From positions 13,099 through 77,098 of the forward strand of contig VBWE01000001.1 in assembly GCA_006218065.1 (NCBI GenBank): a stretch of DNA of 64,000 nt, written 5' to 3'. Below, piece after piece: positions 15,027 through 58,394 of this stretch (the first letter of the stretch is position 1; every line of letters begins with the position of its first letter). This stretch comes from Bacteroidota bacterium. GTDB taxonomy: Bacteria > Bacteroidota > Bacteroidia > Palsa-965. Position numbers and translations under genes: made by a program. Under the pieces are notes generated by a model. That model was given only the letters and a program-made list of their open reading frames with translations, had not been told where the DNA came from and did no database searches.

Positions 15027-15419
15027 TCAATCCACAGGTACACGATCCTTCCCGTCGAAGTAAGGAGCCTGGACCGAGATCACCTTCATTGGTTTTTTCG
15101 AAGTGACTTTTACAGCATGCGGAGTTCCTTTGGGAATGAATATCACATCTCCTTTTTTCACCTGCAGGATTTTATCCCCGAGGATCATTTCACCGGCGCC
15201 TTCGAGTATATAAACATGTTCGGCGTGATGAACGTGCTTATGTTTTTTGACCTCCTTCTTTATAACGATAGCAAAACTGCTCACCAGCGAATCGCTGTAA
15301 AGCGCCCGGACATAATTGCCTTCGATGCCGGCCGGGACTTTCAGGGTATCCAGGAATTGCTGTTGCGCCGGCAGAGCCGATGACAGGAGCAGGAAAATAA
15401 GCGGGAGCAATGATCTCAT
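15027..15419 (-). CDS. Secreted single-domain cupin
   Basis: 130 aa with a signal peptide ending ALPAQQ. The cupin motif 1 is HKHVHHAEHVYILEGAGEM (His60, His62, Glu67), and motif 2 is GDVIFIPKGTPHAV (His101), so a metal site is likely. The activity is unknown. Its ATG overlaps the stop codon of the upstream helical-repeat gene by 4 nt, which shows translational coupling with it. Confidence 0.82.
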   Translation of the reverse strand: MRSLLPLIFLLLSSALPAQQQFLDTLKVPAGIEGNYVRALYSDSLVSSFAIVIKKEVKKHKHVHHAEHVYILEGAGEMILGDKILQVKKGDVIFIPKGTPHAVKVTSKKPMKVISVQAPYFDGKDRVPVD

Positions 15420-16888
15420 TTGTGTTTTTTTGATTTGTTGTTCTCTTTCAGTATGTCCAGGAGCGGCTTTCCTGTCGCTTTGCTTCGCGCATACGAAACC
15501 AGGTCGAATTTATGGATGTAGTTTTCTTTCATTTTGACATCGCGCGACAGCAGGGCCAGTTCTTTTTCCAGTTCACCGAATGCTTTCCGTTTATCCGCAC
15601 GGTCGGGCAGTTCGCGGAAGAACGAAACGACCGCTTTTTCAAAATTATCCATTTTCCCGTCCCGCACGAAACGATCGCAGATCCTGTCGAGCAGGTCTTC
15701 GTGACCGAGTTCGTAATGGACGAATAAATTGAACAGCCGGCCGGCCCTGGTAATATCCGGGCGGATGCCTTCGAGTTTCTTATTCAGCAGGCGGTTCAGG
15801 TAACGCAGGGCCGCGCGGAATTCGCCGAGCATAAAATGCAGCACAAAAGCATCGAGCAGGAAAAGCATCTGGTACACGGGACTGGTCAGTCCCTGGTCCA
15901 CCAGTTGTATCGCTTCGGTCAGCGCTTCGCGGGCGGCGGGAATATCGCACAGGCGGCGGTAAATATTCTGCTCCACGTTGATCACACGTTCGCGGATACG
16001 CATGTTCTTTTCTTTCGAACGCGTGTCGATGGCGCGCAGCTTCGTCGCATTTTCAAGTGCCGCATCGAATGTTCCGCGGTCGACCAGGAGTACGTTCAGG
16101 TTATTCAGCAAAGCGATATACTGGTTGGGCATGGCCTGCTGCAGGCGCGGATGTTTCGTGAACAATTTCGCCATGCCGGTAAGTGTCCGGAAAGCCGCTT
16201 CGCTTTTGCCCGCGGAAAACTGCCTTGCGCTGAGCACCTGCCCGTAAATAATTTTTCCCTGCAGCGATTTCAGTTTACCGGCCGGGTATTGTTCAATTTT
16301 TTCGAGAATGCTGTCGTTCTTTTTATCCAGCCAGTGTTTCTTCAGGCTGAGAAAACTTTCGTACGACATTTTCTGCAGGCTCAGCATCTGCTGCATTTCT
16401 TCGAGCAGGTCCATCTGCTCGCGGAAAGCCGGGCCATATCGTGCAGAGAGTTTCCGCGTATCCTGCCGGGCATGAAGCAGGCGAAGCTCGCGCACAAGTA
16501 ATTCGATTCTTAACTGCGGGCGGATATGCGGACCGGAAAGCCGGGTCAGCCGCCTGAGCAGAAGCCCGCACTGGTCGGGCAGTTTTTTTTCGAAGAGTAT
16601 ATCTATTTCCGCGATGCCTTCCGCCAGTCGTGTTTCCGCCGACCGACCGGCGTGATAAAGGCGCAGTGCTTTGAGCACCTGCCCGTAAAGCAGGTGACGG
16701 GTTACCGCCAGTTTCGCCGCTGATTTTTTTTGGCTGGCTGGCTGTTCATTTTTATTCGCATCAAGGTACACCGCATACAACTGTCGGTAATTTTCTCCGC
16801 CCACACCCGGCCGCTCCAGGAAAAGCCGGACATATCTTTTTTCCTGCCGGTCGAGTGTTTTCAGCAAAATGGCAAGCTTATCTTGCAT
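15416..16888 (-). CDS. Helical-repeat (TPR-like) cytoplasmic protein, paralogue 1
   Basis: 490 aa, no signal peptide, almost wholly alpha-helical. It starts with the family hallmark LLKTLDRQEKRYVRLFLE and ends with repeats such as LGEFRAALRYLNRLLN and ARLFNLFVHYELGHEDLLD-like segments. The gene at 56934-58394 is its paralogue: EKRY-RL at the N-terminus, FR--L-WLNR-LN and LNL--H-EL-H-DLLE near the C-terminus are shared in the same order. It is divergent from the secreted C10 protease gene with 139 bp between them and overlaps the cupin gene downstream. A regulatory or adaptor role is only inferred from the context. Confidence 0.8.
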   Translation of the reverse strand: MQDKLAILLKTLDRQEKRYVRLFLERPGVGGENYRQLYAVYLDANKNEQPASQKKSAAKLAVTRHLLYGQVLKALRLYHAGRSAETRLAEGIAEIDILFEKKLPDQCGLLLRRLTRLSGPHIRPQLRIELLVRELRLLHARQDTRKLSARYGPAFREQMDLLEEMQQMLSLQKMSYESFLSLKKHWLDKKNDSILEKIEQYPAGKLKSLQGKIIYGQVLSARQFSAGKSEAAFRTLTGMAKLFTKHPRLQQAMPNQYIALLNNLNVLLVDRGTFDAALENATKLRAIDTRSKEKNMRIRERVINVEQNIYRRLCDIPAAREALTEAIQLVDQGLTSPVYQMLFLLDAFVLHFMLGEFRAALRYLNRLLNKKLEGIRPDITRAGRLFNLFVHYELGHEDLLDRICDRFVRDGKMDNFEKAVVSFFRELPDRADKRKAFGELEKELALLSRDVKMKENYIHKFDLVSYARSKATGKPLLDILKENNKSKKHK

Positions 16889-16970
16889 AGTTGGATTTTA
16901 AATATTTTTCTGAATAAATTCTGTATTTATAGGTATTTAATTGCCATAATGCCATTCAGGATATTAAATA

Positions 16971-16982
16971 TACCTGATTTTT
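16971..16982 (-). promoter_or_regulatory. Shared 12-bp motif upstream of helical-repeat paralogue 1
   Basis: AAAAATCAGGTA on the minus strand ends exactly 82 nt before the ATG of paralogue 1. The same 12-mer stands exactly 82 nt before the ATG of paralogue 2. It is also 27 nt upstream of the -7 element of the divergent protease gene. Confidence 0.55.
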
Positions 16983-17009
16983 CTTATTTAATACGGTATG
17001 CTGAACCTT

Positions 17010-17017
17010 TAGTTTTG
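17010..17017 (+). promoter_or_regulatory. -7 element of the C10 protease gene
   Basis: TAGTTTTG matches TAnnTTTG and ends 19 nt before the ATG at 17037, which favours that start over the ATG at 17028. Confidence 0.55.
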
Positions 17018-17036
17018 ATTTCATAAAATGATCGCC

Positions 17037-19787
17037 ATGAAAAAACCGATACTTTTTTTCTTCCTGGTATTCCTGCTGATCGCGGGAATAAATTCCGTCA
17101 CGGCACAGGTGAGTCCGCTCACCAGTACCACCTGGAACCAGGGCTGTAACTACAACACCGATTGCCCGGCCGACGGCGCAGGAGCATGCGGCCATGTATA
17201 TACCGGCTGCGGAGCAACAGCATATGCACAAATGCTGAAGTACCATGCTTTTCCACCGGCAGGCTGGGGTTCGCATAGTTATACTGCGGGAAGCTACGGC
17301 CTCCAGTCGGCTAACTATGCCGCCACAAGCTACAACTGGACTTCCATGCCGAACGCCCTGAGTTCGATGAACGCCGACGTAGCACAACTCATGTACCATT
17401 GCGGCGTAGCGCTCGATATGGGTTACGGTCCGAGCGGTTCATACTGCAGTGCGAACAGCCAGGTGCTGAAACAGTATTTCAAATATTCGCTTTCCGTTCG
17501 CGGCGCGCTTCAATCGCAGTACACGAGTACCGCCTGGGAAAACCTGGTCATCAGCGAACTGAATGCAGGGCGCGTGGTTTTTGCCAGCGGGGGCGCTCAC
17601 TTTTATATCATCGACGGGTACCAGACCACGCCGAGCCTGAAGTTTCATCTCAATTTCGGCTGGGGCGGTTTTGCCGACGGATACTATGATATTCATAACG
17701 TGGTGGTGAGCAGTACAAACTTTACACCGTACAGCGTCATCGTCGGCATCAAACCGCTCGCGGGTCTCGAAGCTTCGCCGGATACGGTTACAGTCGGCTC
17801 GGGCGGAGGCAACGCCAATTATGAAGTCGCGTCACTTGCAACAAACTGGACGGCATCAACAGCCGATTCGTGGATCACGCCGGCTTTGCTTTCCGGCGGA
17901 CCCGGGTTTTACAATTACACAAACGGCGCATCGGCGACAATCGGTTCGCATAGTTTGTACACGCCGCGTTACGGCAGCGTCACCTATACCGACGGTTCGA
18001 CGACCAAAAACATCGTGGTAAAACAAAACGGCATCCAGCCTTTCCTCTACTGTGCGCAAAACAACCTCACCTACTCGTCTTCGTCCAGTATGCAAACGGT
18101 GAACATCAGCTGCGACAGTAACTGGACGGTCACTCCGTCGGCGCCGTGGATTACGGTTACGCCAATCTCGGGAACCGGCAACGGATCGATCGACATTACC
18201 GTTGCCGGAAATCCATCCACAAGCACACGCATCGGAACGGTGATCGTAACGCGGAATAATCTTCAGCAGGTGATAAACATCACGCAGGCCGGCTCGGGAA
18301 GTTTCTGGTGCACACCGGCGATGATTACACCCGGAACAAACGGCATCACCAACGTTACCCTGAACACGCTGAACCGCACATCGGCCATCAACGAAGGTTA
18401 TATTAATACGAGTACGGGCACCACGCTGAAGATCGATACCAGCTATACGATTTATGTCACTTTCAGCGGCGGTAACGCTCCGGCGGTGTGGATCGACTGG
18501 AACATCGACGGTGATTTCGGCGATCCGGGCGAAGCCGTTGTTTCTCCTTCGGGAACCTGGTACCCGTCCTTCTCTTCTACAAAAAATATGGCGTTCACTG
18601 TTCCCGCAACAGCGGTGGAAGGTGTGACACGCATGCGCGTTTATGCAAAAGCATTCGGCACAGGGCCTGTTTCCGGCCCCTGCAATACCACGGATAACGG
18701 CGGCGATATCGAAGATTACGACATCACCGTGATGAACCAGCGGCATATCTGGGCAACGCCTTCGTCGCTGAGTTACCTGAACGCCGGCGGAACACAAAAC
18801 GTAACGATCGATTGCGACAGCGCGTGGACGGTGAACAGCCCGGCAAGCTGGATTTCCTTCACCGCCGGTTCGGGCAGCGGCAACGGAACTAACGGGGTTA
18901 TCACCACGGCAAATACATCCACGGTTCCGCGCACGGCTTCGGTTACCTATACGCGCGGCACACGCACTGCCGTAGTGGCGGTTTACCAGGACGGCGCCGA
19001 TACGATACTGCTGGCAAACACACTCGCCGCCACAATTCCGAATTCCGGCGGGACGCAGAACGTGATCATGACGTCGAACGTCGCTTATACCATGACCAGT
19101 TCACAATCGTGGATCACCACGAGCGTTTCTTCCGGTTCGGGCAACGGCAGTTTTGATATTATCGTGAGCAGCAACCCGACGCCGCTGATCCGCACCGGGA
19201 ACGTAACCGTGCAAAGCGGAACGTTTACGCAGGTGATCAGCATAACGCAGGACAGCACAAGCACCGTGCTGAACGTAGCTCCGCCGAGCCTGAACTATTC
19301 TTCCGCCGGCGGAGTACAATCGTTTTCGATCACCACGAGTTCCGGCTGGACGGCATCCACCGGCGACAGCTGGATCGGCATCGACCAGAACAGCGGAAGC
19401 GGAAATGCGACGATCAATGTAACGGCGACGATGAACGGAACAACATCCATCCGCACCGGTTCGGTTACCGTTACGAACGGACTGGTTTTACAGGTGGTAA
19501 CCGTTACGCAGGATTCGATGATCACCACCGGTGTAAAAACATACGGAGCAAACGGGCTGCACGTTTACCCGAACCCGGCGAACGATTTTATCACGATCGA
19601 ATCTTCGGAATACGTGGATGCACAACTGCAGCTGTTTGATGCAACCGGTCGCCTGGTGCTGGAAGGGAATATGAATTCCGGCCGCACAATGCTTTCCACG
19701 TCGGAACTCGGCAAAGGCATGTATCTTTTACTCGTGAAAGAAAACGGTTCGGTGGTCGCTCAGCACCGGCTGATCATTCAGCATTGA
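17037..19787 (+). CDS. Secreted C10 (streptopain-like) protease with five BACON domains, GEVED domain and T9SS type A sorting domain
   Basis: 916 aa. A signal peptide (ILFFFLVFLLIAGINSVTAQ) precedes a C10 cysteine protease at about 30-245. The nucleophile lies in VYTGCGATAYAQ (Cys58 counted from this start), the catalytic His in GGAHFYIIDGY (His188), and the family motif FHLNFGWGGFADGYY follows. Then come two BACON domains (DSNWTVTPSAPWI-type), a GEVED domain (AVWIDWNIDGDF, DIEDYDI), three more BACON domains and a C-terminal sorting domain starting LHVYPNPANDF. It should be exported by T9SS and act on extracellular protein, with the BACON domains binding polymers. The usual inhibitory propeptide between signal and protease is very short or absent. 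Confidence 0.92.
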   Translation: MKKPILFFFLVFLLIAGINSVTAQVSPLTSTTWNQGCNYNTDCPADGAGACGHVYTGCGATAYAQMLKYHAFPPAGWGSHSYTAGSYGLQSANYAATSYNWTSMPNALSSMNADVAQLMYHCGVALDMGYGPSGSYCSANSQVLKQYFKYSLSVRGALQSQYTSTAWENLVISELNAGRVVFASGGAHFYIIDGYQTTPSLKFHLNFGWGGFADGYYDIHNVVVSSTNFTPYSVIVGIKPLAGLEASPDTVTVGSGGGNANYEVASLATNWTASTADSWITPALLSGGPGFYNYTNGASATIGSHSLYTPRYGSVTYTDGSTTKNIVVKQNGIQPFLYCAQNNLTYSSSSSMQTVNISCDSNWTVTPSAPWITVTPISGTGNGSIDITVAGNPSTSTRIGTVIVTRNNLQQVINITQAGSGSFWCTPAMITPGTNGITNVTLNTLNRTSAINEGYINTSTGTTLKIDTSYTIYVTFSGGNAPAVWIDWNIDGDFGDPGEAVVSPSGTWYPSFSSTKNMAFTVPATAVEGVTRMRVYAKAFGTGPVSGPCNTTDNGGDIEDYDITVMNQRHIWATPSSLSYLNAGGTQNVTIDCDSAWTVNSPASWISFTAGSGSGNGTNGVITTANTSTVPRTASVTYTRGTRTAVVAVYQDGADTILLANTLAATIPNSGGTQNVIMTSNVAYTMTSSQSWITTSVSSGSGNGSFDIIVSSNPTPLIRTGNVTVQSGTFTQVISITQDSTSTVLNVAPPSLNYSSAGGVQSFSITTSSGWTASTGDSWIGIDQNSGSGNATINVTATMNGTTSIRTGSVTVTNGLVLQVVTVTQDSMITTGVKTYGANGLHVYPNPANDFITIESSEYVDAQLQLFDATGRLVLEGNMNSGRTMLSTSELGKGMYLLLVKENGSVVAQHRLIIQH

Positions 19788-19873: not shown

Positions 19874-22800
19874 TCAATACTGTATCAGCCGGTAATGGTA
19901 TGTTTTACCTCCCAGCTGAACATGCGCAAAATAAATTCCGGGCGCGAGTCCGTCGAATGCAATCGATAAACGCGACGATCCTTTTTCTATATACTGATTC
20001 CCGGCCGGAACCAGTATTCGCCGGCCGGTAGCATCATAGATGTTGATCGTGAGATAAGTATCCGCAGCCGTTACAACAGTGCAAACTGTGCTGCCGGTAA
20101 ACGGGTTCGGGTAAATTTCCACATGCTGTTCATCGTCGAGACAATTTTCTGTGGTGATCATGGAAATGACTTCGGGCGCGTGGTTGTAATCTTTCTGCAG
20201 AAGACGATATACTGCAGGCGCGGCGAGCGGATTTTCATCCGTCCACGTATAATGAACCGGCTGCGAACTGTTCCCGGCGCCGTCGATGCGTGCCAGCGAC
20301 TGGAAATTCATTCCGTCTGTCGTGCGTTCGATGAAAAAAGCTTCGTTGCTGGTTTCGGTAGCCGTAGTCCAGCGCAGGACAGGTTTTTCATTCTCGCAGG
20401 TTCCTGCAAAACTCACTAAACCTACCGGGAGCGGCGACGAGGTTTGAACCGAGGCCAGCGTAAAATACGGCGTCGTTGTGAAATTGGATGCGGCAACTGT
20501 TACGGTTACTACTGTTCCCACAACGGAAACTGAAATCGCGGGCGAAGCAAGAATAGTCGCATTCGTAAAATTCCCGTCGGCATCAACCAGCAGGCGCAGG
20601 TCGGTTGCCACCAGCGGACCGTAACCGGAAAGCGAAGTGAAATCAAATTCCAGTTTCAGATCGGTGTTCGTGAAGTTGCTCATCTGCGCCAGCCATTCTC
20701 TTTGCAGTTTGCAGCAGATGCCCGGGGGAATTTCCGGGTGCGGCCAGGTGGTGTTGATTGCGGCTGCGCTGTTGCTTCCCGAAAGAAAAAAGGAAAGATT
20801 TCCCGCGGTAAAAGTTCCCGTATTCGCCGACTGGTTCGTTTGCTTCGTGGGACCGATATAAATCGTGAGCATATCCGCCGTGGTCGATGTGCTTTTCGAT
20901 TGTTTCTGGCTGAGTACGCTGTTATCGTCGCGGGCGATGCCGATGATATTGTTGTTGTATGAAGCGTTCGTGGTTGTACTCCAGACTGTCGTGCCGGTGG
21001 ACGATACATAATTATGCGAAAGCGTAACGCCGTATTTGATGGCGAGATACGTTTCCACTTTATTGCGCGAACTTTGTGAATGCGAAGTAGACGTATATGT
21101 TACGATCTCCGCGATATTCCCGTCGTAAAGCTCGAGCACCGGCGAAGCGGAACGCTGGCAGCCCAGCGCTGAATTCGTATTGGTGGACGTACGTCCTCCG
21201 CTGGCAACTGATCCCACCGATGTTCCGGAAATATACATGTCGCGCTGCGTGGAATTAAAATTGAACGCCGCCAGCGCAGGATATCCCGAAGTCCAGGTAC
21301 TGCCGGCGATGACATCGTTCAGGTTCCACGAATCGTTGAACGAATTTCCCGAACGCACATCGAACGAACAGAAATTATTCGGACCCGCTGCACCGGAGAA
21401 AAGAAATTTTCCGGGAGTGGACAGGTTATTCGGCCCGGGTTTGATCACGGCGTAAACGGCGTACTGGTTACTTCCCGAAGGCAAAATGCCGTTGCTCGCA
21501 ATATCCATGTAGTCGCCGTTCGCTGCACTCTGCGAAGCGTCGTCAAAATCGATCACGGGATTGAAATTGATATTGTCCGTGGCATTATCGTAATACGTCG
21601 GGCGGTTTGCGGCAGCGGGTGCAGCAGCGTTCCGGGCGTTCCCGGACTGATCGTTCCAGGTGGCGAGTGCGGCGGCATTCGTCGTGGTGGATGTCCCGGC
21701 ATTGGCTTTTATCCAGAATGCGATATTGGTTCCCACGGCGCCCGGTGCGGTGGAACAAACAGCGATCGTGCGGCTGCCTGCGGGAGCTGTCGTTGTCGGC
21801 GTGCGGGGCAAACCTCCGACGGTAAGCTGCGTGCATTGCGCGTCCACCACGTTGCCCGCCGTTCCGGTAACGCCGTTCATATCGTACGCGATCCAGAAAT
21901 AATTGGTCCCTGCGGAAAGCGACTGCGAACCGTTGATCGTCATCGTGCCTGCAGCTGGCGTTGTTCCCCCGCTGAAAAATTCATTGGACGCGGCAAAGGT
22001 TGCGGACGTGCCCGTGTAATAAATATGAATTTGGGTTACATCGTTCGTATTTGTTCCCGGGATCGTGGAACCGGTCATGTTCACCTGGAACTGTGTAACC
22101 GACATCGGGCTTCCGCAGCCTCCCGCAGTCACCACCTGCACGGCGATGATATCCTGGTCGGCATCACAGCGGATCACATTGGCGGTGTTCGGCTGCGTGG
22201 CGGTGCACGAAGTAAATGTCATGGCTCCTGCGGGCGTCCAGCGGTACACCTGCCCGGTGGCCGGCTTGGCGGAAAGATTATTCGTTTCGGTTCCGTAGTT
22301 CGCCGCCGGCGAGCCACCCGTTCCGTTGAGCGAATAAAAATCGGTTCCCGAAGTTCCGCCGTTCAGCCCGATGGATGCCGACGGACTGGCTGTCGCACCG
22401 GCGTCCTGGCGATAAATATATTCGATCACGTTCGTCGTTTCGTACAGTTTCACCTGGCACGAAATACCGGCGCTTGCAGCCGTGTACGACCATTCCATAT
22501 TCAGCCATTCCACGGTGAGCACGCGGTTCGGCGCTGAACCGGTCATCACGTAATTCACGCTGCCGCCCGTTCCCACCAAAAGATCATCCCAGAGCGGTGC
22601 AACGATCGGGCCCTGGCCGGTTGTCGCAAGCGCATTGCCGAACATGTTCGCCGTGGCTGCAGAACCGAGACTCAGCCAGCCGTTCGAACTCGCCTTGAAT
22701 TGCGTATAGGTTACACAATTGTACGTGAAGCTGAAACCGATATTCGTCGCCGCCGAAAGCGCATCGTCAATGCCCGCAGCATGCAGCGTTGTCGCCCCGC

Positions 22801-22921
22801 TGTTTGCAGTAAATGTTCCGGCCACGGCCGTAAAAGTGAAGCTGATCTGCGCAAAGGCTTTCGGGTGGAATGCCAGGACAAGGACGAAAGCCAGGAACGC
22901 ATGGGTCAAATTGCGTTTCAT
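19874..22921 (-). CDS. Large secreted T9SS cargo with neuraminidase-N-like and LamG-like regions
   Basis: 1015 aa. The signal peptide ends AFHPKAFAQ. Residues 30-240 form a beta domain typical of Bacteroidota cargo (SNGWLSLGS, APLWDDLL). Residues ~250-390 resemble the domain in front of BNR sialidases (GTNYFWIAYDMNG). Residues ~400-640 look like a concanavalin/LamG jelly roll (WNDQSGNARNAA, IAEIVTYTS, VETYLAIKYGVTL). A fibronectin-like segment (LRWTTATETSNEAFFIERT) and a type A sorting domain (VEIYPNPFTGS to the end) close the protein. Probable role is adhesion or binding at the cell surface. No catalytic motif was recognised. Confidence 0.85.
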   Translation of the reverse strand: MKRNLTHAFLAFVLVLAFHPKAFAQISFTFTAVAGTFTANSGATTLHAAGIDDALSAATNIGFSFTYNCVTYTQFKASSNGWLSLGSAATANMFGNALATTGQGPIVAPLWDDLLVGTGGSVNYVMTGSAPNRVLTVEWLNMEWSYTAASAGISCQVKLYETTNVIEYIYRQDAGATASPSASIGLNGGTSGTDFYSLNGTGGSPAANYGTETNNLSAKPATGQVYRWTPAGAMTFTSCTATQPNTANVIRCDADQDIIAVQVVTAGGCGSPMSVTQFQVNMTGSTIPGTNTNDVTQIHIYYTGTSATFAASNEFFSGGTTPAAGTMTINGSQSLSAGTNYFWIAYDMNGVTGTAGNVVDAQCTQLTVGGLPRTPTTTAPAGSRTIAVCSTAPGAVGTNIAFWIKANAGTSTTTNAAALATWNDQSGNARNAAAPAAANRPTYYDNATDNINFNPVIDFDDASQSAANGDYMDIASNGILPSGSNQYAVYAVIKPGPNNLSTPGKFLFSGAAGPNNFCSFDVRSGNSFNDSWNLNDVIAGSTWTSGYPALAAFNFNSTQRDMYISGTSVGSVASGGRTSTNTNSALGCQRSASPVLELYDGNIAEIVTYTSTSHSQSSRNKVETYLAIKYGVTLSHNYVSSTGTTVWSTTTNASYNNNIIGIARDDNSVLSQKQSKSTSTTADMLTIYIGPTKQTNQSANTGTFTAGNLSFFLSGSNSAAAINTTWPHPEIPPGICCKLQREWLAQMSNFTNTDLKLEFDFTSLSGYGPLVATDLRLLVDADGNFTNATILASPAISVSVVGTVVTVTVAASNFTTTPYFTLASVQTSSPLPVGLVSFAGTCENEKPVLRWTTATETSNEAFFIERTTDGMNFQSLARIDGAGNSSQPVHYTWTDENPLAAPAVYRLLQKDYNHAPEVISMITTENCLDDEQHVEIYPNPFTGSTVCTVVTAADTYLTINIYDATGRRILVPAGNQYIEKGSSRLSIAFDGLAPGIYFAHVQLGGKTYHYRLIQY

Positions 22922-29660: not shown

Positions 29661-30611
29661 TTATTCCACGATCACCTTTTTTACTGCACGTTCGCCGGTT
29701 TTGGAAACCAACTGCAGCATATATATGCCCGGTGCAACTGTACTTATATCTAAAGTTTGCTCCTGCCCGTTTTGTTCCGAAAACTGCAGCACCGTTCTGC
29801 CAGAGCAATCGGCCAGCGCGATTTCATACGTTTCCGCCGGCGGATTTTTGAACCGGATATTCAGTTTTCCGTTGGCCGGGTTGGGGAAAACGGACAGGCC
29901 GTCGTCGGTGATGACGGGTTCTTCCACCGATACGTCGCTGCACACGTTGCAGGAAGGTGAAAACAGGTAGCCGTCGTTCGTGGCTGTCCATTGTGTGGGG
30001 CTGTTACGACCGGGAACAACCGTCGCCATCATACCGGTCTGATTGTGCAAACCGTGAATCCCTTTTCCCGCGTTCCATTGGGCACAAAGCGGTTTATTCA
30101 GGATATGCGTTTCGATTTCGTTGCTGGTTTCGCTGAGCACGACCTGCCCGGTGAAATAGCTGGTGGTGCATGAATACATCGGTATGCTGTCGAAGCTGAC
30201 GATAAACTTCCGGTTCGGCGCCAGGCCTGTTGTCGAATACGTAATCACTCCGCCGAATGTATTATTGATATCCTGCCAGGGAAACATGATCGCATTTTTC
30301 GGGGTTGAAGCCGTGCTCGGTATTGCCATAGTTATGGCCCATTGCGAAAAGGTGGAAGCCAGCGTGCCGTCAAAGGTCAGGTACCCGTTACTCGAAACCA
30401 CCACGTTGTTATAGGATGCCCCGTAAAAACAAAAGGGAAAACCGATCGGGATCGCCACCGAATGCCAATCGTCATTCACGCTCAGTACATTCGGCTGCGG
30501 TTGCGGCTGCGGATTGTAGGGAATCGCAGTTACATTATAACATTGCGCTTGGGCAAGCACAGGCAGCAGAATCGTTCCGGCGGCAAGGATTGTTTTGGTA
30601 AAAATATGCAT
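29661..30611 (-). CDS. Secreted nidogen-like T9SS cargo
   Basis: 316 aa from MHIFTKTILAAG; a longer in-frame reading lacks a proper signal. The signal ends VLAQAQ. The beta domain (GFPFCFYGASYNNVVVSSNGYLTF, FPWQDIN, GVITYSTTGLAPNRKFIVSF) is of the kind seen at the start of many Bacteroidota surface proteins. The last ~75 residues (LSVFPNPANGKLNIRF to KKVIVE) form a type A sorting domain. A -7-like CACTTTTG lies 21 nt upstream. The ligand is unknown. Confidence 0.85.
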   Translation of the reverse strand: MHIFTKTILAAGTILLPVLAQAQCYNVTAIPYNPQPQPQPNVLSVNDDWHSVAIPIGFPFCFYGASYNNVVVSSNGYLTFDGTLASTFSQWAITMAIPSTASTPKNAIMFPWQDINNTFGGVITYSTTGLAPNRKFIVSFDSIPMYSCTTSYFTGQVVLSETSNEIETHILNKPLCAQWNAGKGIHGLHNQTGMMATVVPGRNSPTQWTATNDGYLFSPSCNVCSDVSVEEPVITDDGLSVFPNPANGKLNIRFKNPPAETYEIALADCSGRTVLQFSEQNGQEQTLDISTVAPGIYMLQLVSKTGERAVKKVIVE

Positions 30612-30695
30612 GGTTTCACATTTGGGTTCGGTCAAAAGTGAAACGATTATTCCGACTGGCAAAAACAATCGCGGGATTTCTTACGTCCTCAAATG

Positions 30696-32377: not shown

Positions 32378-35221
32378 ATGAAACAATCGCTACTTCCCCG
32401 GGTTGCGTTGCTGGGCATTATGCTGCTCGGTCTCTCCCTGAACAAATTATCCGCACAGGTTTCTGTGAGCATATCCTCGCAAACGAACCTGTTATGCAAC
32501 GGTTCATGCACAGGCTCTGTAACAGCGCTCGCCTCGGGCGGGACTACTCCGTACACATACGCCTGGGCTCCCGGAGGCGGAACAGCGCCCACGGCGAGCG
32601 GGCTTTGTGCAGGAGCATATACGGTGACAGTGACTGATAATATAGGAGCCACCGCAACGGCGACTGTCAACATCACACAGCCCGCACAACTGGTATTATC
32701 CGTGAGTTCGAACCCGGCCTCCTGCGGTTCTCCCAACGGCTGGGCAACGGTTGTATCATCAGGAGGAGTCGCGGGATACACCTACAACTGGGTGCCGACA
32801 GGCGGAACAGGAGCGACTGCAACAGGCCTTGCGCCGGGAACATACACGGTAACGGTTACCGATATGAACGGCTGTACAGTTGCGCAGCCGGTGGTAGTAG
32901 GAAACATCCCGGGCCCGATGGTTACTATTGCTCCCGGCGGGACAATCTGCTCCGGGCAAACGGTACAGCTCACGCCAAACGTAAGCGGCGGAACTGCACC
33001 TTATACTTATAACTGGACCCCGGGTCTTTACCTTTCCAACACCAACGTTTATAACCCGATCGCATCGCCGCCGAATTCCATGACATACACTATGACCGTA
33101 ACGGATTCGTGGGGTTGCGTGTCGACACAAACCGTGATGATTATTGTCAATCCCTCTTTCCAGTCAACCGTTACGATTACGGATGCTACATGCAACCAGT
33201 CCAACGGATCGGCAGCCGCGTCCATTACTTCGGGCGGCACTGCGCCGTTCAATTACAGCTGGTCGAACAGCGCGACTACAGCAACGATCAGCAACGTCAC
33301 AGCAGGATCATACACGCTGAATATCACTGACGCGGCAGGCTGTACGGCCAACCATGTGGCCAACGTAGCCAATATCGGCGGACCGGCGGTTTCTGTTTCC
33401 ACGCAATCTGCACCCTGTGCCAACTATCCGCTCGGGTATGCAGTAGCCACCGCCACAGGCAACGCGCCGCCGTTCAGCTACACCTGGCTCACTACGCCTC
33501 AGGTGATGAACGATACGCTTGCCGGGCTTGCTCCCGGAACATACACCGTGCAGGTAACGGATAATGCCGGGTGCATTTCATTCGGACAGGGAACCGTGGG
33601 GCAGGTTGCGGGAAATCTTTTTTTCTATGCCGCCACTTCTGTGCCTTCCAATTGCAATACATCCACCGGCAGCGCCTATTCCATTACCCAGGGCGGAACA
33701 CCGCCTTACAGTTATCTCTGGTCAAACGGAGCGACAACACAGAATATCTCCGGTGTGCTTGCAGGATCGTATTCGGTTACTGTGACCGATGCCAATGGCT
33801 GCCAGCAAAGCGGAAACCTGGCCATCGGAAATTATTGCGTGAATATCGTGAAGGGGAAATTTTATACCGACAACAATGCCAACTGCGTATTTGATTCGCT
33901 CACCGATCAGCCCGCAGTAAATAAAATGATCCAGGCGCAGCCGGGAGGTTATTATGCCTGGGCGAATGCGAACGGAGATTATACCATGCATGTGCAGCAG
34001 CCCGGTACATACACCGTTTCGCCGGTTGCTTCGCAGAACCTGTATTACAATATAAATTGCCCTCCGTCCGGGGACTATACGATTAATTTCCTGTCGGTAG
34101 GCGATACGGTTACCGGGCAGGATTTCGGACGGCAGCAGATTCCGGGCGTACAGGATCTCACGCTTTCACTCAGCTCCGGCCCGGCCCGGCCGGGATTCCT
34201 GCAATACTACTCGATTTATTATACGAATGTGGGCAGCACGATCGTGAGCGATACGATTTTCTTCGGCCATGATTCGATCCTCACGTTCGTTTCTTCCTAT
34301 CCGCCTATGGATGGTTATACCGCGCCCAACGGTTACTGGCTGTTCAACAACCTGCAGCCGGGTCAGTCCGGATATATCAGCATTACTTTGCAGGTACCGA
34401 CGATTCCCAACGGAGGTTATCTCGGCCGCCAGCTCATCAGCAACGCACGCATCGAGCCTACGGCAACGGATACCACGCCTATCAATAACGGCGACGACGA
34501 ATTGGATATCATCGTCGGTTCCTTTGATCCGAACCTGAAAGAATGCTGGTCGCCGGGCATGGATTCGCTCGGCAATATTTTATTGAGCGATACGCTGCTG
34601 GCCTACACGATCCAGTTCCAGAATACCGGAACGGATACCGCGTTTACTGTTGTGGTGAAAGACACGCTTCCGCCGCAGCTCGACATCACCACGCTGATGC
34701 CCGGCGCTTCGAGTCATCCCTACTCGCTCAACGTAGAAGGCGCGCAGGGCATGAACATACTCACCTTCACGTTCAGCAATATCCTGCTGCCCGACAGTTT
34801 TGTGAACGAACCCCGCAGCCACGGCTTCGTGAAATTTAAAATCCAGACGCTGCCGGGACAAACGGTCGGGACCACGATCTCGAACTCCGCTTCGAATTAT
34901 TTCGATTTCAATCCGCCGGTGCTGACCAATACCGTGAACAATACGATCATCAGCCCGCTTTCGGTGCAGCCGTCAACCGTAACACAAAACGGTATGCTCA
35001 TCGCGCCCAACCCGTTTGATGAAAGCGCCGTGATTTATTTTGAAAAATCAGCGGACTTCGAAGTCGAAATTTTCGACATCGCCGGTCGTTCGGTTTTGCG
35101 CAGCGGAAAACAGCACGGCAGCAAATACCTGCTGAAAACCGACGGATTCGAAAGCGGTGTTTATATTTGTAAGGTGAAAACGGGCGGCACGTCGGTTACG
35201 ACGCGGATCGTGAAGAAGTAA
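32378..35221 (+). CDS. SprB-repeat T9SS cargo protein
   Basis: 947 aa. The signal ends NKLSAQ. About six SprB-type repeats fill residues 30-490, each with the pattern C--NG-----SGG--PY-Y-W-------GL-AG-Y-V-VTD--GC (for example GTYTVTVTDMNGCT). A CNA/SdrD-like segment (about 490-590, GKFYTDNNANCVFD) and two DUF11/DUF7619-like beta domains (GSFDPNLKECWSPG, YTIQFQNTGTDTAF) follow. The C-terminus (LIAPNPFDESAVIYF to RIVKK) is a type A sorting domain. A role in adhesion or gliding is plausible from SprB, but it is much shorter than SprB itself. Confidence 0.88.
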   Translation: MKQSLLPRVALLGIMLLGLSLNKLSAQVSVSISSQTNLLCNGSCTGSVTALASGGTTPYTYAWAPGGGTAPTASGLCAGAYTVTVTDNIGATATATVNITQPAQLVLSVSSNPASCGSPNGWATVVSSGGVAGYTYNWVPTGGTGATATGLAPGTYTVTVTDMNGCTVAQPVVVGNIPGPMVTIAPGGTICSGQTVQLTPNVSGGTAPYTYNWTPGLYLSNTNVYNPIASPPNSMTYTMTVTDSWGCVSTQTVMIIVNPSFQSTVTITDATCNQSNGSAAASITSGGTAPFNYSWSNSATTATISNVTAGSYTLNITDAAGCTANHVANVANIGGPAVSVSTQSAPCANYPLGYAVATATGNAPPFSYTWLTTPQVMNDTLAGLAPGTYTVQVTDNAGCISFGQGTVGQVAGNLFFYAATSVPSNCNTSTGSAYSITQGGTPPYSYLWSNGATTQNISGVLAGSYSVTVTDANGCQQSGNLAIGNYCVNIVKGKFYTDNNANCVFDSLTDQPAVNKMIQAQPGGYYAWANANGDYTMHVQQPGTYTVSPVASQNLYYNINCPPSGDYTINFLSVGDTVTGQDFGRQQIPGVQDLTLSLSSGPARPGFLQYYSIYYTNVGSTIVSDTIFFGHDSILTFVSSYPPMDGYTAPNGYWLFNNLQPGQSGYISITLQVPTIPNGGYLGRQLISNARIEPTATDTTPINNGDDELDIIVGSFDPNLKECWSPGMDSLGNILLSDTLLAYTIQFQNTGTDTAFTVVVKDTLPPQLDITTLMPGASSHPYSLNVEGAQGMNILTFTFSNILLPDSFVNEPRSHGFVKFKIQTLPGQTVGTTISNSASNYFDFNPPVLTNTVNNTIISPLSVQPSTVTQNGMLIAPNPFDESAVIYFEKSADFEVEIFDIAGRSVLRSGKQHGSKYLLKTDGFESGVYICKVKTGGTSVTTRIVKK

Positions 35222-52588: not shown

Positions 52589-55500
52589 TTACCGGATTAC
52601 GTTCACATGGCCGATCAGTTGTTTCGTTTGTCCGCCATACAGCGCATAACGGATGCGATAAACATACGTATCGATCTGCACGACCTCGCCTTTGTACATG
52701 CCATTCCAACCGTTGCTCAAATCACTTGTTTCGAAAAGCAGGTTTCCCCAGCGATCAAAAATCCACATCCGGAAATCTTCGATCAGCACGCCTTTCGGAG
52801 AAAAAATATCATTCAACCCGTCGCCATCCGGCGTAAACGTATTCGGAACATAAAAGCTCGACTCGGGAAGAATATGCACATCCAGTTCAGCGGAGTCGGT
52901 ACAACCGAAACCGTTCACGATGTATTGCGTGATGGTGTACCAGCCGGTGTCGGAATACATGTACGTAAACGTTCCCCCGCACCCGTCCTGCCCGCTGCCG
53001 GGCGGATTGTTCTGGTTGTCGCCCATATCCCAGGCCAGCTGCCCGCAATCCGAAGAAAGATCCGTAACCACCACGGGCTGTTCGAAAAAACCATACTCCT
53101 GTGCGCTGGTTCCGAACGCCGCCACCGGCAAAGGATACACGTGAATGTAGTTGGTGAACGTGACCGTTTGCTGGCAGCCACCCGCCGAACTTACCGTGAG
53201 CGAAACATCATAATCGCCCGGCGTATTGAAACAGATATTCTGCGGATCCTGCTGCGCAGAAGTCATGTTGTTCGAAAACGTCCACTGCCAGTTGCTGATC
53301 GAATCGCCGTTCAGCGTGCTGTTGTCGGTAAAATTCACACACAGCGGCGCGCAGCCGGAAAGCTGGCTCGCAGTGAATGCAGGCACAGGCTGCGGAGCGG
53401 AACTCACCACTACCGTGTCGGATGACGTGCAGCCGTTTACCGTTACCTGCACCCAGTACGTGCCGGGTGTGGTCGCCGTGAAGGTCGCGCCGGTGCCGCC
53501 GCTTTGCCAGAGATACGTTGCATTCGGTGTGCCTGCGTTTAATGAAACCGATCCCTGGCAAATCGCAGTATCATTTCCGAGCCAAACCTGCGGCAAAGGC
53601 AGCAGCGTAACCTGCACGGTATCGGTGGAAGTACACAAGCCCTGCGAAACCTGTATCCAGTAATTGCCTGCGGAATTAACGGTGATGGAATTCGTCGTCG
53701 CGCCGGTTGACCAGAGATATCCGCCGCCGGGAAGCAGCGAAGTAAAAAGCGTTGCCGAATCACCCGGGCAGATGGAAACGTTGCTGCCGAGATTCACCGG
53801 CGGACCGGGATTAAAAAGTACCTGCACCGTGTCGCTGGCCTGGCAACCGTTGCTGTCGGTACCGGTAACGATATACGCAGTTGGCGATGCCGGGCTTGCC
53901 GTTACCGATGCGCCGCCTGTGGAACTCAAACCGGCTGCCGGCGACCACGCATACGTAAATGCACCGGTTGCAGAAAGCATAACCGAATCGCCGGGACAGA
54001 CAGAAACATCGGCGCCTGCATTTACCGGCGGACCGGGACTGAAATTCACCTGCACGCTGTCGATGCTTTGGCAGCCGTTCGTGTCGGTTCCGGTGACGAT
54101 GTAGGTCATCGGAACGGACGGGCTTGCGGTTACTGTTGCGCCGGTGGTGCTGCTCAGCCCGGTTGCCGGCGACCAGTTGTACGTGAATGATCCGCTCGCG
54201 GTGAATACGACTGATCCGCCCGGACAGATATTTCCGGAACCGGGCGTTACATTGAGTGAAGCCGGCGCAGGTTGCGTGATTGTTATCGTTGCGGTGTACG
54301 TATTCGGGACGCAACTGCTGACATCGGAATCGGTGATCAGGACGGAATAAGTTCCTGCGGCGAGATTATTTACGGAAGCGGTCGTTTGCCCGCCGGGCGT
54401 CCATAGATACGTGTACGGTGCAACGCCGCCGCTTACGGTAATCGTTGCGCTGCCGTCGCTCGCGCCGTAGCAGCTCACATCGTTTTGCGAAACGGAAACC
54501 ACGAGCGGCGTAGTGCTGTTCCCGCTGAATTTCAGAATACCGATATCGTCGGAGCCGCCGCAGCCGGTTACATAATACGCGCCGCTGCCCGGGTCGACGG
54601 TAGGTGTGCCGTTATTCGTGTACTCGCCGATTACGAAAAAATTTCCGCTGGCATCGATGCAGCAGCCTGCGGCGAATTCGTAATTGGCGCCGCCGAAATT
54701 GGTTGACCATTGCAGCACGCCGTTGTTGTCGAATTGCGAGACGGACATGTCGGTGCCGCCGCCGAAAACACCCTGGTAATACGCACCGCCGCCGGGATTG
54801 AGCGTCGGGTAATTGGACGACCAGGTAATGCCCACCAGGTAAACGCGACCGGCGTTGTCGGTGCAGAGCTGATCGCCGTTGAAGTCATTTCCTTTTTCCG
54901 TTCCGTTTCCGCCGACGAAGGTGGACCAGAGCAGGTTTTTCGATGCATTGAATTTGGCGATGTATTTATCCGTTGCGCCGCCGCCGTAGGTCGACTGGAA
55001 ATAAGCGCCGTTACCGGGATTCATCAACGGGAAATTTGAACCTGAGCCGGTCAGCCCGCTGATGAAAATATTATTTGCGCAATCATCCAGCGTAATGCCG
55101 ATGCCGGAATCTTCGCCGCTCCCGCCGAAATACGTGGACCATTGCAGCACGTTCGCCGGACTGAACTCCAGGATGATCGCATCCATGCTTCCTCCGCCGT
55201 AAGTTCCCTGGAAATACGCGCCACCGCCTGGGTTGAGCGTGGGAAAAGCATTGGATGAGCTGTATCCGGCAACAAAAATATTTCCCGCGGGATCGGTTAC
55301 CACGCCCTGGAAACTGCCAGCTCCATTATAATACGTGGACCAGGTTTGCACCCCGCTGTTGGTGAATTTGACGATCACCGGGAAGATCCATCCCCCGGGA
55401 TTGGTTCCCTGGAAATATGCGCCGCCGCCGGGATTCAGTACCGGGAAGTCGGGCGAATTGGAACTGCCGGTCAGGATCACATTTCCCGAAGGATCGGTGG

Positions 55501-56731
55501 TGATGCCGCTCCAGCCCCATTCGCCGCCGCTTCCGCCGTAGTATGTGGCCCACAGGCGCACGCCCGCGTTGCTGAATTTTAAAATGAACATATCGTTTCC
55601 GCCGGCATTCGTTCCCTGGAAATACGCACCGCCGCCGGGATTGTACACCGGGAAATTGCTACTCATGGTCCAGCCGCTCACAAAAACATTCCCGCTGTTG
55701 TCGGTGCAGATGCCGTACGATGCGTCGCCGCCATTGCCCCCGTAATACGTAGCCCAGAGCCGCACGCCGCCGGTGGTGAATTTTAAAATCATGGCCACAC
55801 CGAAAGTCGTTCCCGTTCCCTGGTAGTATGCGCCGCCGCCGGGATTGTACCCGGGAAAATTCAGCGAGCTGCAGTATCCGCAGGAAAAAATATTGCCCAG
55901 TCCGTCCGAAACCACGCTGCGCACACCGTCGAGCACACCGCCGCCGTAATAGGTTGACCAGACCAGCGGAGGATCGATGGTCAGTGTTTCTTTTTTCGGA
56001 TAATCGCCGAGCAAAAAACGGATCGTATCGCCGCTGAGCTGAAAAGCCGAACGGACGGTAACGGCGTTTTTCCCGGCAAAACTTTCCACGTTGCCTTCGG
56101 TCAGTTCGCCGCAGCGTGTGCGGATGCGCAGTGCCCGGCCGTTATTCTCCAGGCTGATTTTCCCTGCGCCGCGTTTGATCATCCGCACCTGTGCAGGATC
56201 GGCGCCGGGATGCACGATGAAATCATACTTGATGCCTTTGATTCCGTCGCGGTAAAGTATCCAGTCGATGCCTTCGTACACGTTGCGGATACATACGCGG
56301 TGAAAAGATTGCACCTCGCGGATGCCTTGCGGACAATGCGGCAGGTAATAATTACTCACGCCGTTTTCCGGCAGGGAAGTTTCGATGTTCTCCGGGCGGA
56401 TCGTTGCACCCTGCAGAACGAGATCGACGCGGCACCAGCGGACTTCGCCGATTACCGGCTCGGCTTTTCCTTCGCGTTTTTCACGTACGAGTTCTTCTTC
56501 GTCTTCCCCTTCGTAAAACGCATACGTCAAACCCTGCGTGGTGATGTACATATCAAAACCGGGAGCCGACGTTTTAAAGAGCACGCCCGGAACGGGAAGT
56601 CCGTTTTCACTGACGATTTGCCCTTTGTTTTCGGTAAAACCGATACCCGGTTTGTAAGTGCCGTCATGCGTTCCCGCGCGAGAGAGCATGGAAAACAGGA
56701 TGGCGGCAAACAGGGTAATAGTGCGGAGCAT
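52589..56731 (-). CDS. Giant SBBP-repeat/PKD surface protein with T9SS type B (CHU_C) domain
   Basis: 1380 aa. A signal peptide precedes a DUF7948-type domain (about 28-255, FTENKGQIV, YRDGIKGIKYDFIVHPGAD). About nine SBBP repeats of ~50 residues follow (LNPGGGAYFQGT, WSTYYGG patterns). A SprB repeat, three nearly identical Ig-like units (CPGDSVMLSATGAFTYAWSP), a PKD domain (WQWTFSNN) and the C-terminal gliding-motility-type domain (FYVPNTFTPDGDGLNDIF to the end) complete it. It should be exported through T9SS with a type B signal. It is divergent from helical-repeat paralogue 2; TATGTTTG at 56805-56798 is its -7 element, giving a leader of about 60 nt. Confidence 0.92.
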   Translation of the reverse strand: MLRTITLFAAILFSMLSRAGTHDGTYKPGIGFTENKGQIVSENGLPVPGVLFKTSAPGFDMYITTQGLTYAFYEGEDEEELVREKREGKAEPVIGEVRWCRVDLVLQGATIRPENIETSLPENGVSNYYLPHCPQGIREVQSFHRVCIRNVYEGIDWILYRDGIKGIKYDFIVHPGADPAQVRMIKRGAGKISLENNGRALRIRTRCGELTEGNVESFAGKNAVTVRSAFQLSGDTIRFLLGDYPKKETLTIDPPLVWSTYYGGGVLDGVRSVVSDGLGNIFSCGYCSSLNFPGYNPGGGAYYQGTGTTFGVAMILKFTTGGVRLWATYYGGNGGDASYGICTDNSGNVFVSGWTMSSNFPVYNPGGGAYFQGTNAGGNDMFILKFSNAGVRLWATYYGGSGGEWGWSGITTDPSGNVILTGSSNSPDFPVLNPGGGAYFQGTNPGGWIFPVIVKFTNSGVQTWSTYYNGAGSFQGVVTDPAGNIFVAGYSSSNAFPTLNPGGGAYFQGTYGGGSMDAIILEFSPANVLQWSTYFGGSGEDSGIGITLDDCANNIFISGLTGSGSNFPLMNPGNGAYFQSTYGGGATDKYIAKFNASKNLLWSTFVGGNGTEKGNDFNGDQLCTDNAGRVYLVGITWSSNYPTLNPGGGAYYQGVFGGGTDMSVSQFDNNGVLQWSTNFGGANYEFAAGCCIDASGNFFVIGEYTNNGTPTVDPGSGAYYVTGCGGSDDIGILKFSGNSTTPLVVSVSQNDVSCYGASDGSATITVSGGVAPYTYLWTPGGQTTASVNNLAAGTYSVLITDSDVSSCVPNTYTATITITQPAPASLNVTPGSGNICPGGSVVFTASGSFTYNWSPATGLSSTTGATVTASPSVPMTYIVTGTDTNGCQSIDSVQVNFSPGPPVNAGADVSVCPGDSVMLSATGAFTYAWSPAAGLSSTGGASVTASPASPTAYIVTGTDSNGCQASDTVQVLFNPGPPVNLGSNVSICPGDSATLFTSLLPGGGYLWSTGATTNSITVNSAGNYWIQVSQGLCTSTDTVQVTLLPLPQVWLGNDTAICQGSVSLNAGTPNATYLWQSGGTGATFTATTPGTYWVQVTVNGCTSSDTVVVSSAPQPVPAFTASQLSGCAPLCVNFTDNSTLNGDSISNWQWTFSNNMTSAQQDPQNICFNTPGDYDVSLTVSSAGGCQQTVTFTNYIHVYPLPVAAFGTSAQEYGFFEQPVVVTDLSSDCGQLAWDMGDNQNNPPGSGQDGCGGTFTYMYSDTGWYTITQYIVNGFGCTDSAELDVHILPESSFYVPNTFTPDGDGLNDIFSPKGVLIEDFRMWIFDRWGNLLFETSDLSNGWNGMYKGEVVQIDTYVYRIRYALYGGQTKQLIGHVNVIR

Positions 56732-56797
56732 ACTTGTTTTTTTCGAGTATTTACGGGCAGATGAGGATGATCATAGCTTGGGTGGTTTGTTGTGCGG

Positions 56798-56805
56798 CAA
56801 ACATA
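56798..56805 (-). promoter_or_regulatory. -7 element of the 1380-aa cargo gene
   Basis: TATGTTTG on the minus strand, 66 nt before the ATG. The shared 12-bp motif lies 34 nt further upstream. Confidence 0.4.
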
Positions 56806-56839
56806 TCGGCGGAGTGCAGTTCAGGCAAGTCAAAATCAA

Positions 56840-56851
56840 AAAAATCAGGTA
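56840..56851 (+). promoter_or_regulatory. Shared 12-bp motif upstream of helical-repeat paralogue 2
   Basis: AAAAATCAGGTA ends exactly 82 nt before the ATG at 56934 and lies between the two divergent -7 elements. The identical 12-mer at identical distance precedes paralogue 1. Confidence 0.55.
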
Positions 56852-56892
56852 ATTCCAAAATCAATAAAATGAGTAAAACTGTATTTAATTAA

Positions 56893-56919
56893 TTGATTTA
56901 TAATATTTTATTATTTTTG
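56893..56919 (+). promoter_or_regulatory. Promoter of helical-repeat paralogue 2
   Basis: TTG at 56893-56895, a 16-nt spacer and TATTTTTG at 56912-56919, 14 nt before the ATG. The shared motif lies about 41 nt upstream of the TTG. Confidence 0.6.
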
Positions 56920-56933
56920 ATTCTGGTAACTCT

Positions 56934-58394
56934 ATGCGCTATTCCGAAGATCTCGAAAAACTGGTCCGTTCGCTTTCCAAAGCGGAAAAACGGTATTTCC
57001 GGCTTTCGGCGGAGATGCACGAAGGCGATAAATCATATCTCACGCTTTTTGAAAAACTGGCAAAGAAACGCGCCGTAAAAAAAGAAAGCCCCGATTACGA
57101 TACGCGGCGTTACCTGTTCAGCCAGCTGATGAAAAGCCTGGCGGCTTGTCGCGACAAGCATTCAGTGGATGCGGAAATTTACGGGCTGCTCACGGCGGTT
57201 GACGTACTGTATGAAAAAGACCTGCGCAATGTGCGCCGGAAAGCGTTGCAGCGTGCACGCAAACTGGCCGTGCAATTCGAACGCATCGAGCTGCTGCTGG
57301 AAATTAACCGGCTCGAACGTGTCGGCATTCTCGATGAAGCGCTTTCCGAAAAAATACTGCTCGAACAACGGGCTTTGCTGCTGCAGGCCGCCAACATAAA
57401 CGAGTACCGGCACCTGGCAGCCCGTGTTTCGTCGCTGTATGCACGCGAAGGCGAAATCCGCTCACCGGAACAGCTTGCCGTTTACGAAAACCTGATGCGG
57501 CACGAATTGCTGCAATCGGAAAGCGCTGCTTTATCTACCGAGGCGCAGTATTTTTTCTTTTTCATTCACGTGGTTTTTACGCTGCTCGCCGACCGGCCGC
57601 ACGAAGCCTACGCGCACAACCGCAAACTGATCGCCCTGCTCGAAGCCCGTCCCTGGCTGCTTCGCCAGCAGCAGTGGCAGAAACGGTACGCCGATATTCT
57701 CGACAACCAGTTTCTCATCTGCTCCACCCTGTCCGAAACCGGCGAAGCCGAAGAACTGCTGCGCCGCTCGCGCCAGTTGCCCGGTTATGCACGCACCTTT
57801 ACGCTCAAATACCTGAACCTGCTCGGCGTATATATCCGTAACGGCGATTTCGAAAAAGGGCAAAACGCGCTGAAAGAGCTGGAAGATTATCTCGCCCGTC
57901 CTGACGCTTTTATTCCCGCCGAAAGTAAAACGGTATTGTATTGCAACATCGCCGTGATGCACTTCGGAGCCGGGCAGTTCCGCAAATCGCTCGACTGGCT
58001 GAACCGCATACTGAACGATGCGCCCGGCGGCGCGCGCGAAGACGTACTGGCCCTTGCGCGCCTGCTTAACCTGATGCTGCACTTCGAACTGCAGCACACC
58101 GACCTGCTCGAATACCTGGTCAAATCCACGTATCGTTTCCTCGGCAAAAAGAGCCGCCTGTACAAATTCGAATCCGTTTTCCTGCACTCGGTGCGTGAAC
58201 GCCTGCTCGATTATGCCGACCCGCGCGAACTGCGTACCTCCTTCGCCACGCTGAAAGCGGAACTCGAAGAAGTATTGAAAGATCCCTACGAAAAACGCGT
58301 CCTTGAATATTTCGATATCATCGCCTGGCTGCAGAGCAAAGTCGAACAACGGTCTTTTGCGGAAATCGTGAAGGAGCGCGCCGGGAAACCCTGA
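56934..58394 (+). CDS. Helical-repeat (TPR-like) cytoplasmic protein, paralogue 2
   Basis: 486 aa, no signal peptide, almost all alpha-helical. It opens with LEKLVRSLSKAEKRYFRL and has TPR-like helical pairs throughout (LKYLNLLGVYIRNGDFEKGQ, FGAGQFRKSLDWLNRILN, LLNLMLHFELQHTDLLEYL). It is the paralogue of the gene at 15416-16888, with the same order of conserved segments and nearly the same length. It is divergent from the 1380-aa T9SS cargo gene (202 bp between starts). A small GldM-C-like secreted protein follows after 87 nt. Function unknown; a regulator or adaptor for the cargo is an inference from the repeated context. Confidence 0.8.
   Translation: MRYSEDLEKLVRSLSKAEKRYFRLSAEMHEGDKSYLTLFEKLAKKRAVKKESPDYDTRRYLFSQLMKSLAACRDKHSVDAEIYGLLTAVDVLYEKDLRNVRRKALQRARKLAVQFERIELLLEINRLERVGILDEALSEKILLEQRALLLQAANINEYRHLAARVSSLYAREGEIRSPEQLAVYENLMRHELLQSESAALSTEAQYFFFFIHVVFTLLADRPHEAYAHNRKLIALLEARPWLLRQQQWQKRYADILDNQFLICSTLSETGEAEELLRRSRQLPGYARTFTLKYLNLLGVYIRNGDFEKGQNALKELEDYLARPDAFIPAESKTVLYCNIAVMHFGAGQFRKSLDWLNRILNDAPGGAREDVLALARLLNLMLHFELQHTDLLEYLVKSTYRFLGKKSRLYKFESVFLHSVRERLLDYADPRELRTSFATLKAELEEVLKDPYEKRVLEYFDIIAWLQSKVEQRSFAEIVKERAGKP

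Follow-up and report, generated by a model that had tools for sequence, protein, structure and literature searches.

The divergent loci of M27 and M1

Bacteroidota encode very many T9SS cargos and, to our knowledge, how individual cargos are switched on is largely open. Two loci in the window (the whole 64,000-nt stretch of DNA analysed) bring this question into focus. At each, a helical-repeat gene is divergent from a large T9SS cargo gene, and the same 12-mer, AAAAATCAGGTA, lies between them. Are the helical-repeat proteins regulators or chaperones of individual cargos, and does the 12-mer mark a common regulator? The features of the two loci are as follows.

15416..16888, minus strand: RusR-like helical-repeat (TPR) protein, paralogue M27, 490 aa (ORF; NF058569 BT_2802_fam E=3.8e-24; included in the family alignment)
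16889..17027: divergent intergenic region, 139 nt, common to M27 and the C10-peptidase cargo
16971..16982, minus strand: 12-mer AAAAATCAGGTA, 82 nt upstream of the M27 ATG
17010..17017, plus strand: possible Bacteroidota -7 element TAGTTTTG of the M27 cargo gene (putative; consensus match only)
17028..19787, plus strand: T9SS cargo of M27, 919 aa, with Peptidase C10, BACON, GEVED and type A sorting domain (curated models)
52589..56731, minus strand: T9SS cargo of M1, 1380 aa, with DUF7948, SBBP, SprB, PKD and type B sorting domain (CHU_C) (curated models)
56732..56933: divergent intergenic region, 202 nt, common to M1 and its cargo
56798..56805, minus strand: possible Bacteroidota -7 element TATGTTTG of the M1 cargo (putative; consensus match only)
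56840..56851, plus strand: 12-mer AAAAATCAGGTA, 82 nt upstream of the M1 ATG
56912..56919, plus strand: possible Bacteroidota -7 element TATTTTTG of M1 (putative; consensus match only)
56934..58394, plus strand: RusR-like helical-repeat (TPR) protein, paralogue M1, 486 aa (NF058569 E=5.8e-45 over residues 1-478; AF2 pLDDT 90.9)

M27 and M1 are ~22% identical over the family alignment. The first-pass annotation called them paralogues, and this is borne out by the alignment of all 34 family members from their own genome, which match one NCBIfam model. It had also assigned the whole of 15416-17017 to the first gene. The coding part is 15416-16888 on the minus strand, and the remainder is the divergent intergenic region. 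Curated domain and sorting-domain models agree that both genes are divergent from a T9SS cargo, with C-terminal sorting domains above the curated cut-off in the gene at 17028 (TIGR04183, 50.0 bits) and the gene at 52589 (TIGR04131, 58.6 bits).

A small secreted-looking, cupin-like protein (MRSLLPLIFLLLSSALPAQ...) is encoded at window positions 15027-15419 on the minus strand and adjoins the M27 gene. Since its start overlaps the M27 stop (ATGA), the regulator may be translationally coupled to the cupin-like gene. More T9SS cargo genes crowd the window. TIGR04183 matches were obtained at 19874-22921 (minus), 29661-30668 (minus) and 32378-35221 (plus), and two genes at 41779-43026 (minus) and 43033-45153 (minus) were judged to be cargo genes only by the appearance of their C-termini.

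Family membership and relation to RusR

Protein and profile searches identified 34 full-length family members in the genome; one profile search gave 37 matches. All 34 match NCBIfam NF058569 (BT_2802_fam) at E<=0.001 and no other NCBIfam model. NF058569, named 'BT2802 family ribose utilization protein', has a profile length of 502 and a curated cut-off of 550 bits, which neither M1 (154.2 bits) nor M27 (85.6 bits) reaches. Because their scores are so far below the cut-off, M1 and M27 are distant relatives rather than members of the curated BT_2802 family. The homology of M1 is full-length, with residues 1-478 aligned to profile positions 1-501, while M27 matches in two stretches, the better of which spans residues 225-480. 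The sole sequence above the cut-off in the class sample is from G301 (676 bits).

RusR is reported to regulate the rus locus in Bacteroides thetaiotaomicron, with an iModulon of its own that spans the rus PUL (PMC12596196). We take RusR to be BT2802 on the basis of that paper and the NCBIfam name. No ribose gene was seen beside M27 or M1, whose divergent neighbours are T9SS cargos.

Pairing with T9SS cargo genes

The neighbours of all 34 members were listed with a hexamer-based gene caller. A neighbour was called a T9SS cargo if its C-terminus scored above the NCBIfam curated cut-off for TIGR04183 or TIGR04131. A divergent upstream T9SS cargo was found for 18/34 members, all 18 candidate partners tested having passed the cut-off, compared with 7/256 controls taken from those contigs (Fisher p=4e-14). 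A conservative binomial estimate, in which all 424 TIGR04183 first-look candidates and 63 TIGR04131 matches were counted as real and ~4300 genes were assumed, gave p=3e-9. The partner of M25 runs off the contig end and is outside the 18 tested. Sixteen of the 34 members are missing the divergent-cargo arrangement, several of them having a cargo downstream; M7, M8, M23 and M34 have a cargo on that side. M12 and M18 form a tandem pair arranged end to start (L041:5420-8538, minus strand), whereas members usually stand singly and divergent.

At least 150 type A and ~56 type B T9SS matches score above cut-off in the genome, and a RusR-type protein stands head-to-head with about one cargo in ten. 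The divergence first noted at two loci is therefore no two-locus coincidence, as it extends to 18 paralogues by the curated CTD models and recurs across Bacteroidota. Since over half of the members are head-to-head with the gene of a T9SS-exported protein, many surface proteins may have a private on/off switch. Each pair predicts a regulator to delete and a transcript expected to respond. A literature search, with most subscription papers outside its coverage, found no published account of a pairing between RusR-like proteins and T9SS cargos.

Arrangement in other Bacteroidota

Across five sets of Bacteroidota loci the nearest upstream ORF is divergent in 182/207 members and co-directional in 25. 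Among control genes of the genome under study it is divergent in 82/256. The median start-to-start spacing is ~170-230 nt. Seventy-one of the 182 divergent neighbours carry a T9SS CTD, a count in which single cases can be wrong, as the neighbour was the longest ORF nearby, and which will miss divergent CTDs because the models applied to other genomes were built from the genome under study. The divergent-CTD arrangement was found in 9/47 members in G213, 16/41 in other relatives, 21/67 on named Bacteroidota contigs and 7/18 class-wide matches.

G213, from the same class but a different taxonomic family, yields at least 75 matches to the RusR-like proteins. Nearly all of its usable members (46/47) are divergent, mostly from secreted-looking proteins of ~1100 aa. 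Many of these partners are 900-1600 aa long and have a common SprB-like ending without a recognised CTD, and several are homologous to the cargo of M1 (E down to 3e-169). Dozens of giant secreted-looking partners in G213 (at L097, L098, L100, L105 and L134-L137, for example) end in a common sequence like QLCPGTYTINIKDKNGCSVNVNLTAP. No recognised T9SS domain was found at the C-terminal ends of these partners, and the common ending may be a C-terminal signal of a kind not yet recognised.

Certain members retain their partner in more than one genus, M28 being the clearest case. The M28 pair was found in 3 genomes, those of M4, M15 and M5 in 2, and M14 with its LeuA-like gene in 9, these reciprocal-best-hit counts being too high, since named contigs were each counted as a separate genome. 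Orthologous partners are kept for 46% of regulators at >=400 bits and for 1% at 150-250 bits. Co-inheritance of regulator and cargo was rejected as a general rule, as it is strong only among close regulators.

Partners that are not secreted

The partners of other orthologue groups include a LeuA-like synthase, FabH, a VOC protein, a pirin-like protein and a 175-aa protein, all named by sequence inspection. Opposite the G301 member, at a divergent spacing of 164 nt, is an operon that, by inspection, encodes a ribokinase, an ADP-ribosylglycohydrolase-like protein, a nucleoside hydrolase and a sugar transporter. A family that faces both metabolic operons and cargos is more readily explained by local regulation than by a chaperone function for cargos.

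The LeuA-like divergent partner (IQIFDTTLRDGEQVPGC) is kept across several Bacteroidota lineages (L043, L115, L195, L207, L210, L216, L221, L228 and L230), which hints that the family also includes a housekeeping regulator. One Bacteroidales orthologue group (L174, L176, L178-L183, L185 and L187) is divergent from a conserved protein of ~175 aa (MSISKVSTLTSGVLAIAKDVKKS...).

The shared 12-mer

The coordinates confirm that AAAAATCAGGTA is present at both loci with exactly 82 nt to each ATG. The 5.26 Mb genome has four exact copies, two beside M27 and M1, one at an unrelated intergenic spot and one in the interior of a transporter-like gene. The upstream regions of M27 and M1 shared a 12-mer at any offset in 37/3000 dinucleotide shuffles (~1%) and at equal offset in 9/160,000 shuffles. 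Over all 561 paralogue pairs, about 0.03 same-offset shared 12-mers are expected. The equal spacing is unlikely by chance, yet it concerns 2/34 members.

No copy of AAAAATCAGGTA with 0 or 1 mismatch was found upstream of any of the other 32 members, and it is absent from the closest homologues of M27, which are in G213. In 9 other members the best match has two mismatches, where mononucleotide shuffles predict ~1 such member. A looser form, [AT]CAGGTA, is found upstream of 6/34 members versus 9/199 control regions (uncorrected p=0.012). These matches and this enrichment are a weak lead on a motif. A de novo word search of the 34 upstream regions against the 199 control regions returned AT-rich words, attributable to the lower GC of the former (0.35 versus 0.45), and no family-wide site. 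Footprinting of orthologous intergenic regions (M28, M4, M15, M14 and M5) showed no clear conserved site. As a family-wide operator AAAAATCAGGTA was rejected, given its copies elsewhere, the 32 members without it and the exclusively AT-rich yield of the word search.

The first-pass annotation had proposed that one common regulator reads AAAAATCAGGTA and governs both the M27 and M1 loci. The exact match at a spacing so seldom equalled in shuffles points that way, as does the slight enrichment of [AT]CAGGTA. At the two loci AAAAATCAGGTA is also ~27 and 34 nt upstream of the possible cargo -7 elements, which are consensus matches only, and an activator could use this placement. Nevertheless the proposal is quite unlikely, since the site is absent at 0-1 mismatch from the remaining 32 members, two of the four copies in the genome lie away from these loci (one being intragenic) and the closest homologues of M27 lack it. 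The genome scan that the annotation had suggested, for the motif and for divergent secreted neighbours, thus gave a split result. Other members are without the motif, and most have the neighbour.

Predicted fold

The AlphaFold2 model of M1 is all-helical (pLDDT 90.9) and predicts a TPR fold. The best matches among PDB structures, over M1 residues about 107-486 (118-486 for the TPR domains of Rap), are Rap (4gyo_B, Z 21.1, 306 residues, rmsd 4.4) and NprR (4gpk_K, Z 18.4). Because other TPR proteins (LGN and Rpn6) reach Z 17-18, the match indicates a TPR superhelix in general and not RRNPP membership. A sequence search of the PDB gave only generic TPR matches such as kinesin light chain.

A separate model of the N-terminal 117 residues had a pLDDT of 91.9. 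Comparison of residues 1-75 with PDB structures gave no convincing match, and no DNA-binding fold was recognised. The N-terminal region has an invariant E18-K19 within the motif SLSxxEKRYF. No signal peptide was seen in these proteins and no receiver domain was found.

Local regulators, chaperones or duplicated cassettes

The cytoplasmic TPR proteins are probably local transcription regulators of the divergent neighbour, in a family that has expanded and is mostly devoted to T9SS cargos. In the mechanism we propose, a helical N-terminal region (~115 residues) would be joined to a TPR superhelix of Rap/NprR shape, which may sense a ligand or peptide. The protein would then control the promoter of the divergently transcribed neighbour, whether as activator or repressor, perhaps by contacting DNA or RNA polymerase. 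The family has grown to 34 copies in this lineage, and most copies would serve one T9SS cargo gene each. We counted against this reading that no DNA-binding fold was recognised, that no conserved operator was found, that 16/34 members are without a divergent cargo and that M1 and M27, at 154 and 86 bits, fall far short of the 550-bit cut-off.

The first-pass annotation had left a choice between cytoplasmic chaperones and regulators matched to individual cargos. Regulators are the best-supported reading because the family is that of RusR, and this reading is far more general than the two window loci. The chaperone option fares worse, since the partners of many members are not secreted, examples being the ribokinase operon, the LeuA-like synthase and FabH. 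As chaperones or export pilots in the cytoplasm, each specific to one cargo, the helical-repeat proteins would bind their own T9SS cargos before Sec export. TPR superhelices do bind peptides, no signal peptide was seen and the partners include large secreted proteins, all of which would suit such a role. It is unlikely all the same, since the VOC protein and the pirin-like protein also have to be accommodated as partners, a regulatory role is reported for the characterised relative (PMC12596196) and a divergent (182) rather than co-directional (25) arrangement suits a regulator better than a co-operonic partner. Adjacency could also reflect shared duplication rather than present function, with regulator-cargo cassettes multiplying together. 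Several cassettes are close together on single G213 contigs, and orthologous partners are kept mainly among close regulators, as this explanation would have it. We consider it very unlikely because the partners vary in family and length but remain head-to-head with the RusR-like gene in many genomes, even where they are unrelated to T9SS.

Local regulation of the divergent neighbour may extend further. It is possible, and we suggest it tentatively, that these proteins form a class of TPR regulators spread throughout Bacteroidota, which have no recognised DNA-binding domain and control T9SS surface proteins singly. Some genomes would then have 30-75 dedicated regulators, each responding to a ligand or peptide of its own, as RRNPP receptors do.

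Comparison with known systems

A defence system was considered and rejected, as there was no PADLOC match. Like the RRNPP receptors (Rap, NprR and PlcR), the modelled protein has a C-terminal TPR superhelix (Z 21.1 for Rap and 18.4 for NprR). It differs in that identity is 10%, no XRE-type HTH was found and the hosts are Bacteroidota rather than Bacillota. In the structure comparison, residues 1-75 gave no match to an XRE HTH or to the three-helix bundle of Rap. PorX is a response regulator whose action is on the entire secretion system, whereas each RusR-like protein adjoins one cargo and is without a detected receiver domain. The PorX/PorY system is similar in that its regulation is linked to type IX secretion (for PorX, PMC11320123).

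RusR/BT2802 itself differs in the distance of M1 and M27 from the curated family (154 and 86 bits versus 550), in the tens of paralogues per genome found here and in the partner, which is a T9SS cargo and not a ribose operon. The likeness consists of full-length homology (M1), similar length, the N-terminal SLSxxEKRYF motif and a divergent partner gene at the one locus above the cut-off (G301). If the regulator reading is true, a little-studied ribose regulator would become the type member of a large family of TPR regulators whose N-terminal domain has no recognised fold.
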